This document shows, piece by piece, positions 5,906-13,799 of a DNA stretch of 64,000 bases (position 1 is the stretch's first letter; the number at the start of each line of letters is the position of its first letter). The stretch is from Ignavibacteria bacterium (GTDB lineage Bacteria; Bacteroidota; Ignavibacteria; UBA10030; SZUA-254): NCBI GenBank assembly GCA_016178595.1, contig JACOSY010000015.1, positions 1 to 64,000 of the forward strand, in the 5' to 3' direction. The notes beneath the pieces were generated by a model that was not told the origin of the DNA, made no database searches, and saw nothing but the letters and a program-made list of their open reading frames with translations. Position numbers and translations under genes: made by a program.

Positions 5906-6691
5906 ATGCCGACGTACCAAACGCTTCTCTACGAACTTGCCGATGGTGTTCTCACCGTAACGCTCAACCGTCCGGACGTCTACAACGCCTTTAATGAGCA
6001 GATGAAAAAAGAAATGAACGATGCGTTGAAAGAAGCCGAGAAAGATCCAAACGTCCGATGTGTCGTCATTCGCGGGGCAGGAGACAAAGCGTTTTGCTCC
6101 GGACAGGATTTGAAGGAACATGCCGGCGGAAAACGCTTGCTCAAAGAATCATTGGAGAAAAGCTATAACCCGATGATACGCAAGATGCGGACGATGGGAA
6201 AGCCGATCATCGGGATGATCAATGGAGTTGCTGCGGGTGCGGGATGCAGTCTGGCGCTTGCATGCGACATGCGCATCATGTCGAGTACCGCCAAACTGAT
6301 TGAGGTGTTCATTCGCATCGGACTTGTTCCCGATTCGGGATCGCATTGGTTCTTATCGAGGCTGGTCGGAATGGCAAAGGCGTTCGAGTATGCAGCGACG
6401 GGCAGGGATATTTCCGCCGAAGAAGCCGAACGGGTTGGTCTCGTCAATAAAGTCGTTCCATCCGACAAGCTTGAGGAAGAAACAATGTCGCTCGCAAAGA
6501 AGTTCGCCCAAGCACCGACAAAATCCATCGGTCTCATCAAGCGAACACTGAATAAGGCTCTTTCTTCCGACCTCAATACCATTCTCGATTACGAGGCGTG
6601 CATTCAACAGATCGCATCGGAGACCGAAGATCATCGGGAGGGAGTAAAGGCGTTTCTGGAGAAACGGCCTGCGAACTTCCAGGGCAGGTAG
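5906..6691 (+). CDS. paaG: enoyl-CoA hydratase/isomerase, PaaG-like
   Basis: 261 residues, crotonase fold. The first oxyanion-hole segment is AFCSGQDLKEH (~62-72) and the second is GVAAGAGCSLALACD (~108-122). The segment IGLVPDSGSHWFLSRLVG places an aspartate where PaaG isomerases have their catalytic Asp, and the overall pattern is closer to PaaG than to ordinary hydratases. In the phenylacetate pathway PaaG converts the ring-1,2-epoxide of phenylacetyl-CoA to oxepin-CoA; PaaG-like enzymes also isomerise other unsaturated acyl-CoAs. It is followed by a PaaA-like oxygenase and a PaaH-like dehydrogenase on the same strand, which supports this reading. The symbol is given by similarity only. 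Confidence 0.75.
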   Translation: MPTYQTLLYELADGVLTVTLNRPDVYNAFNEQMKKEMNDALKEAEKDPNVRCVVIRGAGDKAFCSGQDLKEHAGGKRLLKESLEKSYNPMIRKMRTMGKPIIGMINGVAAGAGCSLALACDMRIMSSTAKLIEVFIRIGLVPDSGSHWFLSRLVGMAKAFEYAATGRDISAEEAERVGLVNKVVPSDKLEEETMSLAKKFAQAPTKSIGLIKRTLNKALSSDLNTILDYEACIQQIASETEDHREGVKAFLEKRPANFQGR

Positions 6692-6724: not shown

Positions 6725-6806
6725 GCACCCCTCGACTTCGCTCGGGTCGATAGACCCGTAGGGACTCGTCGAGGTGACGTCATGCTGAGCGGAGTCGAAG
6801 CATGAG
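6725..6806. repeat. dispersed imperfect-palindrome repeat between paaG- and paaA-like genes
   Basis: Nested inverted repeats: CCTCGAC (6730-6736) pairs with GTCGAGG (6768-6774), GGGTC (6744-6748) pairs with GACCC (6753-6757), and CGACTTCGCTC (6733-6743) pairs, with one mismatch, with GAGCGGAGTCG downstream. The second half reads GTCATGCTGAGCGGAGTCGA, a phrase I recognise as a very common intergenic repeat in many bacterial assemblies. It carries no open frame of note. Mobility and function are unknown. Confidence 0.6.
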
Positions 6807-6966: not shown

Positions 6967-7809
6967 ATGCCGTCAATTGCTTCGAAACTTTCCAACTCAA
7001 TGCGCGAAGAACGCATGAACACGCTCCTTGCCAAACACGAATCGATCGAGAGTCTGGACGACATGAGCGATGAGTACTACGATCACCTCACCAACCTCAT
7101 GCTGCAGCAAGCCGACTCCGAGCTTGCGGGCGGCTTCGGGTACGTCCCCTGGATCATGAAAGCCCCCACGACGGAAGAGATGCTCGTCGTCTCCAACATC
7201 GTCCGCGATGAAGTCCGCCATGCCCGTGCAATGTACCGGCTGCTTGAAGATGCGCGGTTCGGCGTCGACGATTGGGTGGATACGATGGACTTCACTTTTC
7301 GCGTGGACGATACTCTCGATCTCGGTGATAAGCGTGCCGCAAGCGACAAGCGTGTGAACATCTTTTACTATCCCATCGACTCGTGGGCGGATTTCGTCAT
7401 GTTCAATTTCTTAATGGACCGTGGAGCCGGTCACCAACTGGAAGATGTGAAGACGAGCAGTTACGGCCCGTGGCGGAGAGAGATCGACCGTATCTTTAAG
7501 GAAGAAAAAACTCACATAGCTCATGGCGATTATTGGGTGAAACGCCTATCGTTAGATCCGACTACGAAGGGTGAGATTCAGGAAGCATTGAATCACTGGT
7601 GGCCGCGCGTCATGGCGATCTTCGGCAGACCGGGTTCGAAAAAGAACAAGCGGTATCGCGATCTCGGCTTGAAGAGCCGGGACAATAACGATGTTCGGAA
7701 GACATTCGAGCAGGAAGTGCGCGACAACGCCGAAGCCTGGGGACTGGTTGTCCCGCAATGGATCCCCGACTGGCAGAAGGTTCCTGAAGATTCGGTTATC
7801 CCCGGCTGA
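6967..7809 (+). CDS. PaaA-like di-iron ring-oxygenase subunit
   Basis: 280 residues of the PaaA/PaaC ferritin-like family. The site GGAGAGATAG precedes ATG 6967. The helical ligand set is complete for the catalytic PaaA type: Glu52, Glu82 with His85 (DEVRHA), Asp151, and Glu180 with His183 (EEKTH). The Asp-to-Glu-to-His spacing equals that of E. coli PaaA as I recall it, and SYGPW and WWP landmarks are shared. PaaA epoxidises phenylacetyl-CoA, but the known enzyme also needs PaaC (structural), PaaB and the reductase PaaE, none of which is nearby. The next gene overlaps by one base (TGATG), so they are co-translated. The substrate is inferred; a different acyl-CoA is possible. Confidence 0.75.
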   Translation: MPSIASKLSNSMREERMNTLLAKHESIESLDDMSDEYYDHLTNLMLQQADSELAGGFGYVPWIMKAPTTEEMLVVSNIVRDEVRHARAMYRLLEDARFGVDDWVDTMDFTFRVDDTLDLGDKRAASDKRVNIFYYPIDSWADFVMFNFLMDRGAGHQLEDVKTSSYGPWRREIDRIFKEEKTHIAHGDYWVKRLSLDPTTKGEIQEALNHWWPRVMAIFGRPGSKKNKRYRDLGLKSRDNNDVRKTFEQEVRDNAEAWGLVVPQWIPDWQKVPEDSVIPG

Positions 7810-8660: not shown

Positions 8661-10312
8661 CATTCGGCGCGCGCACGATGTTCTTTCTCGTCTCCTTCAC
8701 CATCATTCCTCTCGCGATCATGGAAGCCGGTGATACGCGCATGGCCTCCTATGACGTGACTCAATATGATCTGAGCATTGCATTCGATTTGCCCGCGAAG
8801 TCGTTTACGGGACGCGTCATCATGAGTGCCACAACGCTCGCACCAATCAGCGAGGTCGTTTTCAATGCTTCCGTATCCACATTGACGATTGATTCGGTTC
8901 TTTACAAGAGCCAGCGTGTTCGTTTGTTACACGATGGGGACATTGCTACGACAACATTACCCTCCCGACTCGACCTTAAGACGCCGTTTGAACTCACGAT
9001 TTATTACCATGGCGTGTCGAAATTCACCGGCCAGTATGATGGTGGCGGCGTGTATATTCCCGACACGGCTCACTTCACCCATGTAGTGACAAGCAGTGAA
9101 CCGAACTTCGCTCGCACGTGGTGGCCCTGCAAGGATTCACCTGAAGATAAAGCACCCGTCCGCGCCCACATCACCGTTCCTGTAAATCTGATTGCTGCAT
9201 CAAACGGCCTTCTCAAGAGCATGGAAAGAAAGATCGGTACGGCAACGTATCACTGGGAAACTCGGTATCCGATCGCGACATATCTTGTGTCGGTAGCTAT
9301 CGCCCCTTACGTCGAGCTTCATGACACATACATCGGACTCGATAGTACACGGATGCCGATCACGTATTACGTGTATCCGAACGACACGATCAAAGCCAAG
9401 GCGGATTTTCAAAACACGACACAAATGCTTGGATTCTTCGCACGCCATTTTTGTGAGTATCCGTTCTTCGAAGAAAAATTCGGTTACGCAGAGGTCGACG
9501 GAAGTACGACGATGGAGAATCAGACGCTGTGCAGCATTGAGACGCAACTCATTACGGGAACCAGAGAACATGAGCTGACGTTACTCCATGAAATGGCTCA
9601 TCACTGGTGGGGTGATCTCATCACACCGGCAACATGGAACCATACGTGGCTCAGCGAAGGATTCGCAACGTACGCTGAAGCGCTCTATCTCGAAGAGACA
9701 AAAGGCGCCAAACAGTATCATACATACATTGATCGGTTCATGTCTGCCCGGATTGGCACCTATGCCGGTTGCGTGATCGGGAAGAGTGACACCGCTTTCT
9801 GGGATTCATTCGCGCCGAGAGTCTATTTCAAAGGAGCGTTGGTCCTTCACATGCTTCGTGGAATTCTTGGCGACAGCATCTTCTTTGCCGCCATGCGAAA
9901 CTATGTCAACGAGCCGGCGCTCCGATATGCCACTGCTCGTACGGAAGATTTCATCCGGGCGTGTGAGAATACTTCCGGAACGACCTTGCAATGGTTCTTC
10001 GATGAATGGGTGTACGCTTCGGCCGATTCGATCGATCGTCCGGTGTACGAATACTTCTGGACCATCCAGCCGGGAAAAACAGATACAACAAGAGTTTCTC
10101 TAACTATCAAACAGCCATACGCCGGGAAGTTGCTCTACAGAATGCCGATGAGCGTAAGCGTTTGGACGCAGGAAAAAGAGTTTATTTTTTCTATGACCGA
10201 CAGTCTCGCAAATCAGGACTTTACACTATCACTCCACGGCAAAGTAGATTCACTCCAGATAGACCGCCAAGGGTGGGTTTTCAAGTCGCTGAGAAAGAAG
10301 GAAGGATTTTGA
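8657..10312 (+). CDS. M1-family zinc aminopeptidase, exported
   Basis: 551 residues. The zinc site HEMAHHWWGD is followed by the third ligand in WLSEGFATYAE, as in gluzincin M1 peptidases. The GAMEN exopeptidase loop appears as TTMENQT, so the Met-Glu-Asn core is kept. An N-terminal beta-sandwich (residues ~30-240) contains the FARTWWPCKD phrase typical of the family. A hydrophobic segment in the first 20 residues looks like a signal peptide; an ATG at 8678 is another possible start. The gene overlaps its predecessor (ATGA) and its successor (TTGA), so it is embedded in the acyl-CoA operon although peptide trimming has no obvious link to it. Confidence 0.85.
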   Translation: MTFGARTMFFLVSFTIIPLAIMEAGDTRMASYDVTQYDLSIAFDLPAKSFTGRVIMSATTLAPISEVVFNASVSTLTIDSVLYKSQRVRLLHDGDIATTTLPSRLDLKTPFELTIYYHGVSKFTGQYDGGGVYIPDTAHFTHVVTSSEPNFARTWWPCKDSPEDKAPVRAHITVPVNLIAASNGLLKSMERKIGTATYHWETRYPIATYLVSVAIAPYVELHDTYIGLDSTRMPITYYVYPNDTIKAKADFQNTTQMLGFFARHFCEYPFFEEKFGYAEVDGSTTMENQTLCSIETQLITGTREHELTLLHEMAHHWWGDLITPATWNHTWLSEGFATYAEALYLEETKGAKQYHTYIDRFMSARIGTYAGCVIGKSDTAFWDSFAPRVYFKGALVLHMLRGILGDSIFFAAMRNYVNEPALRYATARTEDFIRACENTSGTTLQWFFDEWVYASADSIDRPVYEYFWTIQPGKTDTTRVSLTIKQPYAGKLLYRMPMSVSVWTQEKEFIFSMTDSLANQDFTLSLHGKVDSLQIDRQGWVFKSLRKKEGF

Positions 10313-11070
10313 GAAAGACAGAGAAGGCAATTCCCGAGATGGTTTTTCTCATAGGTGAATCCCCGATGGTCGAGGAATTAGGAGAGCAGTGCGCTCGTGT
10401 TGGCTACACAATCACCGTGAAATTCAATCGACCTCTGCAAAAGGAAAAACTTCCTCCCTTACTGCGTTCGAGTTCTACTATTCCACGGGGTACTGCTCTC
10501 GCTATCGAGCTTACAAATACGGACAAAGAGAAAAAAAAGAAAAATATACTTTTGCTGGAGAAATCCCTTCCCGGGCACACTGTCATCCTCAGCTCGTCCG
10601 TCACCGTTACTGCCACAGAGCAAGCAAGCTGGCTCAAGTCCCCGGAACGATTAATGGGACTATCCGCGCTTCCAACGCTTCTTTCTCAACAACTCCTGGA
10701 AGTTGCACCGACTGTCAATACATCGACAAAGACAGTCTCGACGATCAAGAATTTCTTGGAACGGCTCGGAAAAGAAACTGCCGTCGTGCAAGACCGCATC
10801 GGAATGGTGCTGCCGAGAATTCTTTGTATGTTGGTGAATGAGGCTTCCTTTGCAGTGATGGAAAATGCGGCGCCACCTCGCGATATTGATACTGCGATGA
10901 AGCTTGGCACAAATTATCCGCTCGGCCCAATCGAGTGGGCAGACAAAATAGGAATCCAACAGGTTTTCAGCGTTCTGGAGTCCCTGCATCAGGATCTGGG
11001 TGAAGAACGATACCGAATTGCGCCGCTCGTGCGACAAATGGCTGCCGGGAAACGTTGGTGGTCTACTTGA
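10309..11070 (+). CDS. degenerate 3-hydroxyacyl-CoA dehydrogenase-like protein
   Basis: About 253 residues from TTG 10309 (overlapping the peptidase stop by four bases, with AAGGAAGG just before); ATG 10339 is an alternative. The C-terminal ~100 residues match the 3HCDH C-terminal domain: VVQDRIGMVLPRILCMLVNEA, then DIDTAMKLGTNYPLGPIEWAD and YRIAPLVRQM. The N-terminal half is short, opens with MVFLIGESPMVEELG and lacks the GxGxxG loop, so NAD binding is doubtful. It may be a structural partner of the intact dehydrogenase at 7809-8660 or a decaying paralogue. The uninterrupted frame and tight coupling argue for function. Confidence 0.7.
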   Translation: MRKTEKAIPEMVFLIGESPMVEELGEQCARVGYTITVKFNRPLQKEKLPPLLRSSSTIPRGTALAIELTNTDKEKKKKNILLLEKSLPGHTVILSSSVTVTATEQASWLKSPERLMGLSALPTLLSQQLLEVAPTVNTSTKTVSTIKNFLERLGKETAVVQDRIGMVLPRILCMLVNEASFAVMENAAPPRDIDTAMKLGTNYPLGPIEWADKIGIQQVFSVLESLHQDLGEERYRIAPLVRQMAAGKRWWST

Positions 11071-12590: not shown

Positions 12591-13799
12591 ATGGTGCGGA
12601 CCGAAGCTGTTATCCTTGATGCAGCTCGGACTCCTATCGGGAGGTACGGCGGTGCATTCCGCGATGTGCGTCCCGATGACCTCAGTGCCCTCATCATCAA
12701 AACTCTGAGTGAGCGTACAGCACTCGACCCATCGGTCATCCAGGATGTCATGTGGGGTTGTGCAAATCAAGCCGGTGAAGACAACCGGAATATCGGTCGT
12801 ATGAGCGCATTACTGGCGGGACTTCCCTACTCCGTGCCCGCCACAACCATCAACCGACTCTGCGGGTCAAGCCTCGACGCAATCAATCATGCGGCGAGAG
12901 CGATCTGGTCCGGAGATCTTGAGATCGTGATTGCCGGGGGCGTCGAAAGTATGAGCCGTGCGCCATACTCCCTCCCAAAAAATCAAACCGGTGCGTACGG
13001 GAACATCTCTGCCTATGACACGGCACTTGGCTGGCGTTATCCGAACCCGAAGATGGAAAAACTTTTTCCCCTTGAGACAATGGGTGAGACGGCCGAAAAC
13101 ATCGCAGAGAAATATACTATCTCTCGCGAGGAACAAGATCAATTCGCTTGCAACAGTCACGTGAAAGCCGTCCGTGCACAGACAAGCGGCGCATTCAATG
13201 ATGAAATCGTGCCCGTCGAGGTTCCCCAGCGGAAAGGCAATCCGGTCATCATCAAGCAAGATGAAGGCCCGCGCTCCGATACATCAATGGAGAAGCTCGC
13301 TGCGCTCCAGCCGGCGTTCAGGAAAGATGGAACGGTAACAGCAGGCAATTCTTCTTCGCTCAATGACGGCGCAGCTGCCGTTCTCATCATGAGTGAACAA
13401 CGAGCGCGAGACTTTGGCAAACGTCCGATGGCACGCATTGTTGCAACAGGTCTTGCGGGTGTCGATCCGCGCTACATGGGAATCGGGCCTGTGCCTGCCG
13501 TCCGGCAAGCGCTGCAGAAAGCAAAACTTACCATGAATCAGATCGATGTGGTTGAGTTGAACGAAGCTTTCGCAGCGCAATCACTTGCCGTCGTCCGCGA
13601 TCTCGACCTCGATCCCACAAAACTCAATGTGAATGGAGGCGCAATTGCCCTCGGCCATCCTCTCGGATGCAGCGGTGCACGCATCATGACGACACTGCTT
13701 CACGAGATGAAGCGACGGAAAGCCCGTTATGGACTCGCGACCATGTGCATCGGCGTTGGGCAGGGAATCGCCACGATAGTGGAGAGTACATATCTGTAG
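12591..13799 (+). CDS. paaJ: acetyl-CoA C-acyltransferase (thiolase, PaaJ/PcaF/FadA type)
   Basis: 402 residues, the usual length of thiolase II-family degradative enzymes. The acyl-carrying cysteine is Cys91 in [10 protein letters not shown], His356 is in [14 protein letters not shown], and the second cysteine is Cys386 in CIGVGQG. It cleaves 3-oxoacyl-CoA with CoA to acetyl-CoA and a shortened acyl-CoA; PaaJ and PcaF members make succinyl-CoA from 3-oxoadipyl-CoA. Together with the PaaG-like and PaaH-like genes upstream it completes a beta-oxidation set. The assignment to phenylacetate rather than fatty-acid breakdown comes from context, so the symbol is tentative. Confidence 0.85.

Follow-up and report, generated by a model that had tools for sequence, protein, structure and literature searches.

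The DNA analysed here, a stretch of 64,000 nucleotides from an Ignavibacteria bacterium that we call the window, lies on contig C12 of a 3.10-Mb draft genome (61 contigs, 96.9% complete). The gene under study encodes a PaaA-like di-iron protein, referred to below as the solo protein, and it stands among paa-type genes of the same strand:

5906..6691, + strand: PaaG-type crotonase (best NCBIfam model TIGR02280 PaaG, 264 bits, cut-off 345)
6783-6805: motif with near-palindromic ends, TGCTGAGCGGAGTCGAAGCATGA
6967..7809, + strand: solo PaaA-like di-iron protein (PF05138), intact open reading frame from ATG to TGA, 280 aa
7809..8660, + strand: 3-hydroxyacyl-CoA dehydrogenase, PaaH-like N-terminal part (profile match)
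10006..11070, + strand: second, partial 3-hydroxyacyl-CoA dehydrogenase-like open reading frame, syntenic in Ignavibacteria solo loci
12591..13799, + strand: thiolase of the 3-oxoadipyl-CoA type, PaaJ/PcaF-like (TIGR02430, 564 bits, cut-off 597)

An earlier sequence-only reading of this DNA had described the neighbours as PaaG-, PaaH- and thiolase-like, and profiles or best matches agree, the thiolase being PaaJ-like. The TGA of the solo gene shares one base with the ATG of the 3-hydroxyacyl-CoA dehydrogenase gene (TGATG), so that the two are probably co-translated. The homology in the second dehydrogenase-like frame starts near residue 161 and therefore its true start probably lies near 10.5 kb. 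The crotonase directly upstream is the presumed epoxide isomerase, and an orthologue 72% identical to it adjoins canonical PaaC in one relative (G027). The near-palindromic motif is located inside the 275-base gap 5' of the solo gene and occurs as a single copy within the window. A motif scan of the window returned no credible candidate for an electron-donor gene.

The solo protein matches Pfam PF05138 PaaA_PaaC with 138.2 bits (cut-off 28.5), which places it in this superfamily, and falls below the cut-offs of the equivalog models for PaaA (TIGR02156, 106.6 bits, cut-off 280), PaaC (TIGR02158, 61.3 bits, cut-off 133.35) and BoxB (TIGR03225, 35.5 bits, cut-off 499.1). The earlier claim that it reproduces the PaaA ligand set proved correct: Glu52, Glu82, His85, Asp151, Glu180 and His183 align with Glu42, Glu72, His75, Asp126, Glu155 and His158 of E. 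coli PaaA, the ligands listed in PMC4498308. The two positions of the PaaA lysine bridge are occupied by Y59 and I78. The AlphaFold2 monomer model has a mean pLDDT of 92.2 and a pTM of 0.89, and its closest PDB chain is PaaA (Z 28.6, rmsd 1.9 over 247 residues), followed by SSO1313 (Z 25.9), PaaC (23.4) and BoxB (22.5). Comparison with five relatives gave pN of 0.10-0.14 against pS of 0.72-0.88, and the gene is thus under strong purifying selection.

The genome of the window, as far as the 96.9% complete draft covers it, contains one PF05138 protein, which is the solo protein itself. A profile search found no PaaB, and TIGR02160 (PaaE) gave no match at E<=1e-3; the partners reported missing from the surroundings of the gene are hence missing from the draft genome as well. 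The other paa-type genes are mostly retained and are scattered over three contigs (C12, C39 and C40). Contig C39 carries an EthD-like gene, a ring-cleaving-type crotonase and a PaaF-type crotonase, the last being 70% identical to a Kryptoniota cluster gene. Contig C40 carries an aldehyde dehydrogenase of the cluster type (60% identical), next to genes for a membrane protein and a DinB-like protein (both named by eye), and the order of the three is that of the Kryptoniota clusters. Of the genes for which a genome search had been suggested earlier, paaBCE were not found, and a PaaZ-like aldehyde dehydrogenase is present. PaaK was not found in this genome (best match 31 bits, cut-off 646), nor was the canonical alpha subunit of indolepyruvate:ferredoxin oxidoreductase (42 bits, cut-off 651), and a supply of phenylacetyl-CoA through the latter enzyme in this host is accordingly unsupported.

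Related genes were collected by scanning one genome per species with an eight-sequence alignment as the query, which gave 57 loci, or 58 with the window; the scan required one of two exact peptide patterns and the distribution is therefore a lower bound, biased toward conserved members. By record titles, the hosts are Ignavibacteria, Kryptoniota, Bacteroidota-labelled MAGs, Elusimicrobia, Rokubacteria, NC10/Methylomirabilota, Calditrichota, Bacillota including Tumebacillus avium and T. lacus, an Actinomycete-labelled MAG and a Chlorobiales-labelled MAG. The alignment comprised 54 of the 58 solos (L055, L103 and L104, which end at contig edges, and L084, with a stop inside the matched range, were left out), and its members are 51-85% identical to the window protein. 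E52, E82, D151, E180 and H183 are present in all 54 and H85 in 53. The solo gene at L063:10001-10849 carries His85Arg together with Asp81Asn and may represent a decaying gene, a sequencing error or an altered site.

A midpoint-rooted tree of 91 rows, in which 33 of the 58 solos were picked for spread, SSO1313 was not included and some long branches occur elsewhere, places all 33 solo rows together at one side of a branch supported at 99/99. This side holds no PaaA row and stands apart from the PaaA, PaaC and BoxB-like rows. The Glu49/Lys68 pair that forms the lysine bridge is found in 19 of 20 PaaA rows and is replaced by Tyr/Ile in 33 of 33 solos, which are also longer than PaaA by about 15 residues in the stretch from His85 to Asp151, an insertion located around residues 103-127. 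The counterpart of PaaA Phe108, which orients the phenylacetyl group according to PMC4498308, is F133 and is retained in 33 of 33. By sequence, the solos are a little-noticed, very conserved and separate family that spans several bacterial phyla.

The gene context was compared over the 58 loci; the neighbour clusters owe their names to a rough codon-bias gene caller and to profiles run on one representative each. Five marker gene types (PaaF/G-, PaaH-, PaaJ- and PaaZ-ALDH-like genes, and PaaK) were sought on the same strand within 6.5 kb of the solo gene: 44 loci have one or more of them, and the other 14 have none. With the E. coli paa proteins as the only references, 29 of the crotonases near the solo gene match PaaG best and 29 match PaaF best (20 loci have both types), and the nearest upstream crotonase is PaaG-type in 28 of the 34 loci where it could be typed; the best matches of other cluster members within 6 kb are PaaH (35), PaaZ (21), PaaJ (15) and PaaK (6). 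By profile, PaaK lies upstream of the solo gene in 7 of the 58 loci, reaching 600 bits in L065, and in five Rokubacterial loci its open frame ends at most 84 bases from the solo gene. PaaX scores 267.7 bits in T. lacus and 254.0 bits in an NC10 genome (cut-off 264.6).

A 2-oxoacid dehydrogenase E2 gene lies within about 10 kb of the solo gene in 13 of 58 loci, and in Tumebacillus an ELFV-type amino-acid dehydrogenase, whose best model is tryptophan dehydrogenase below its cut-off, adjoins the cluster. Together these genes suggest a route from phenylalanine through phenylpyruvate to phenylacetyl-CoA. The canonical paa cluster of Exiguobacterium contains EthD, two crotonases, an aldehyde dehydrogenase, PaaH- and PaaJ-like genes and PaaX (PMC9416434). 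Compared with this gene content, the Tumebacillus cluster looks like the same operon in which PaaABCD was swapped for the solo gene and a gene for a small protein with a CxGC motif. The aldehyde dehydrogenases of solo clusters are about 500 aa long, whereas E. coli PaaZ (681 aa) is a dehydrogenase fused to an oxepin-CoA hydrolase. A third crotonase in NC10 and Ignavibacteria has the ring-cleaving 6-oxocyclohexenecarbonyl-CoA hydratase/BadI models as its best matches, below their cut-offs, and is a candidate oxepin-CoA hydrolase; its orthologue in the genome of the window (70%) is the ring-cleaving-type gene at G000:C39:10476-11555, beside the EthD and PaaF-type crotonase genes.

The distribution of partner genes was examined in the genome of the window and 59 relatives, and in the genomes reached through 50 of the 57 loci, the other 7 being already in the set of 60. 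Among the 60, the solo gene is present in 9 genomes and canonical A/C genes in 24 (three of them fragmentary), and the two sets never overlap, whereas 3.6 genomes with both would be expected (naive p 0.006, a statistic that ignores shared ancestry). PaaB was found in 21 of the canonical genomes but not in any solo genome. Some canonical loci of the relatives also carry, beside PaaA/PaaC, orthologues of the window crotonase (72%), PaaH (48-60%) and thiolase (52%). Among the 50 locus genomes, the solo protein is the sole PF05138 protein in 33, including the complete chromosome of Tumebacillus avium; 7, all Bacillota or Actinomycete MAGs, have it together with a canonical A/C pair, and these are exactly the 7 in which PaaB scores above its cut-off. 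The remaining 10 contain additional PF05138 matches, mostly divergent and some below the cut-off. In a control genome, that of S. acidocaldarius, a PF05138 match is present and a PaaB match absent. Four Rokubacteria-titled genomes (G085, G086, G095, G107) have up to six PF05138 matches each, mostly divergent from PaaA, PaaC and the solo protein. Five relatives (G024, G031, G032, G046, G052) combine a strong PaaK match (592-616 bits) with zero PF05138 proteins.

The absence of PaaE, which the sequence-only reading had counted among the missing partners, stands for the genome of the window but does not set it apart: among the 24 canonical genomes, 10 likewise gave no TIGR02160 match, and the cut-off was passed by none of the 60 genomes and by none of the 50 locus genomes. 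PaaE as the missing link is therefore uninformative. Motif scans of the 58 loci revealed no electron-donor gene conserved beside the solo gene. Plausible Rieske genes occur in four loci, in L079, L081 and L091 on the opposite strand at a distance of 2.4-3.5 kb and in L088 on the same strand, and the remaining matches of the motif scans are spurious or distant.

The small CxGC protein is encoded downstream of the solo gene on the same strand in 28 of the 58 loci, in Elusimicrobia, Bacillota, NC10, Tumebacillus and Calditrichota, and is absent from all the Ignavibacteria, Kryptoniota/Bacteroidota and Rokubacteria solo loci examined. The motif is kept in 14 of 15 aligned sequences. The exception comes from the single Calditrichota locus: here the cysteines of the small protein are gone, and a Rieske gene comes next. 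One family member has sub-threshold ScdA_N and DUF1858 matches. The predicted fold of the small protein (model pLDDT 81.8) is similar to those of two small structures solved by NMR (TM 0.58-0.64 over the query), with weak E-values of 0.09 and 0.15. We may speculate that this protein serves in electron transfer or iron loading.

Textbook epoxidation of phenylacetyl-CoA needs PaaC, PaaB and PaaE in addition to the catalytic subunit. Judging by the data above, the solo protein is probably a stand-alone di-iron protein of the PaaA/PaaC/BoxB family, which would epoxidize the ring of phenylacetyl-CoA without PaaB and PaaC, a single gene thereby replacing PaaABC. The replacement is indicated by the lack of overlap between solo and canonical genes in the 60 genomes and by the orthologous crotonase, PaaH and thiolase genes that flank canonical genes, although the 7 MAGs with both systems would be odd for a pure replacement. 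The most likely substrate is phenylacetyl-CoA, to judge from the PaaG-, PaaF-, PaaH-, PaaJ- and PaaZ-ALDH-like neighbours and, at some loci, from PaaK and PaaX; the earlier suggestion of another acyl-CoA is on these grounds not favoured. The other suggestion, that the enzyme is self-sufficient or differently partnered, is supported by its distinct clade, by the paa-type operons found across phyla and by genomes that mostly lack a PaaB or PaaC homologue.

In the mechanism we propose, some hosts would make phenylacetyl-CoA from phenylpyruvate with a 2-oxoacid dehydrogenase and others would use PaaK, and this substrate would bind in a PaaA-like pocket over a carboxylate-bridged di-iron site. There O2 would be activated with two electrons from a perhaps generic donor, encoded away from the solo gene. 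The PaaG-type isomerase encoded next to the solo gene would take over the resulting 1,2-epoxide, a ring-cleaving hydrolase and the aldehyde dehydrogenase would follow, and the PaaF, PaaH and PaaJ steps would come last. The enzyme itself would need no PaaC and would probably form a homo-oligomer, or else act as a monomer in the manner of BoxB. Several facts speak against this reading. PaaA is insoluble without PaaC (PMC4498308), and the Glu49/Lys68 pair, thought to be important in PaaA, is missing from the solos. Additionally, no donor gene is conserved beside the solo gene, 14 of 58 loci lack the marker genes within 6.5 kb, and the genome of the window has neither PaaK nor the canonical alpha subunit of indolepyruvate:ferredoxin oxidoreductase.

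One could argue that the solo protein oxygenates the ring in the same type of pathway but with other, unrecognised partners, for example the small, DUF1858-type CxGC protein, an EthD-like protein or a Rieske ferredoxin. This is possible, though on balance we do not expect it. The small protein in 28 of 58 loci, with its weak fold matches and sub-threshold domain matches, the EthD gene in 5 of 58 loci and on contig C39, and the Rieske gene of the Calditrichota locus all suggest such partners. However, no candidate is universal: the genome of the window has no DUF1858 match and lacks the small protein, as do the other groups named above, and EthD also accompanies the canonical paa genes of Exiguobacterium (PMC9416434) and is thus not specific. 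It is unlikely that the substrate is a different aryl-CoA, such as indole-3-acetyl-CoA, 4-hydroxyphenylacetyl-CoA or benzoyl-CoA. The insertion near the pocket and the lost lysine bridge could shift the specificity, the Tumebacillus dehydrogenase fits the tryptophan dehydrogenase model best, and PaaK is absent from the genome of the window; but the PaaG-type crotonase next door, the PaaF-, PaaH- and PaaJ-like genes, PaaK in L065, PaaX at and near its cut-off, the low BoxB score and the retained Phe108 all argue against it.

A function outside ring oxidation, that of a ferritin-like oxidase or of a protective epoxide deoxygenase with retained ligands, would be in line with the likeness of the family to other ferritin-like di-iron proteins, and a second function is conceivable where canonical PaaABC coexists (7 of 50 genomes). 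We regard it as improbable, since in 33 of the 50 genomes the solo protein is the sole PF05138 protein and the other paa genes would want a first step. Finally, the sequence-only reading had itself named what would speak against it, namely a full paaABCDE cluster at another place in the genome, with the solo gene as its decayed duplicate. A draft in 61 contigs leaves some room for such a cluster. Yet no second PF05138 protein, PaaB or PaaE is found there, the ligands are almost invariant, purifying selection is strong and the tree sets the clade apart from PaaA; within the limits of a genome that is 96.9% complete, we reject this explanation as extremely improbable.

The preferred reading, a stand-alone phenylacetyl-CoA epoxidase, sets the solo protein beside several known systems. 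With PaaA, the catalytic subunit of the E. coli 1,2-phenylacetyl-CoA epoxidase, it has in common the fold, the six ligands, Phe108 and the pathway neighbours PaaG, PaaF, PaaH, PaaJ and a PaaZ-like aldehyde dehydrogenase; it differs in being about 30% identical over the structural alignment, in its shorter C-terminus, the insertion, the Tyr/Ile pair, the separate clade and the absence of PaaB and PaaC. PaaC, the structural subunit, has the same fold and Ile at the Lys68 position in 18 of 23 rows, but belongs to a different clade, and many PaaC rows lack iron ligands that the solos retain (Glu155 is present in 12 of 23). BoxB, the benzoyl-CoA 2,3-epoxidase, is already a one-polypeptide aryl-CoA epoxidase with no structural subunit and a transient reductase (PMC4498308). 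Three BoxB-like rows lack the lysine bridge as the solos do, while BoxB is larger (about 470 aa) and 20% identical to the solo model at its Z of 22.5. SSO1313 from Sulfolobus solfataricus (PDB 4mud), an uncharacterised PaaA/PaaC-like protein, has a PF05138-type fold and comparable ligand motifs, but is shorter and 25% identical.

We found no description of a PaaC-less PaaA-like enzyme in the open-licence PMC literature. Configurations with only PaaA and PaaC were already reported for Bacilli and Halobacteria (PMC13186573), and the consulted part of that survey yielded no mention of PaaC loss. Each of the 825 ligase-bearing proteomes kept in the survey has both PaaA and PaaC, and the strings "Elusimicrob-" and "Ignavibacter-" do not occur in its main text. 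If our reading is true, the predicted pathway extends to lineages that are invisible to the PaaA-plus-PaaC marker rule of PMC13186573. A natural single-subunit enzyme would then reveal the real role of PaaB and PaaC, and would offer a simpler biocatalyst for dearomatising CoA esters. More tentatively, and with considerable doubt, we suggest that the solos could be a widespread class of one-polypeptide aryl-CoA ring epoxidases with no structural or bridging subunit and with Tyr/Ile for the lysine bridge. This class would have recruited the CxGC protein as a donor or iron-loading partner in 28 of 58 loci, and a ring-cleaving crotonase would do the job of the PaaZ oxepin hydrolase at least in Ignavibacteria and NC10. 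Such a class, if true, would be a second, simpler architecture of the phenylacetate hybrid pathway.

The plasmid collection gave 221 matching records, none of which is at least 60% identical, so that the solo family was not seen in it. Two other arrangements were observed on plasmids. Plasmid pHB5018c of Thermus thermophilus (L135) has a PF05138 pair without an annotated PaaB; both proteins form long branches in the tree, and the PaaA-like member is without the Glu49/Lys68 pair. Plasmids of Ruegeria (L131:6028-6789) and Paracoccus (L132:5971-6723) carry a third PF05138 protein after canonical paaABCDE, which has Lys at the Glu72 position and is without Asp126, and thus its iron site looks degenerate.
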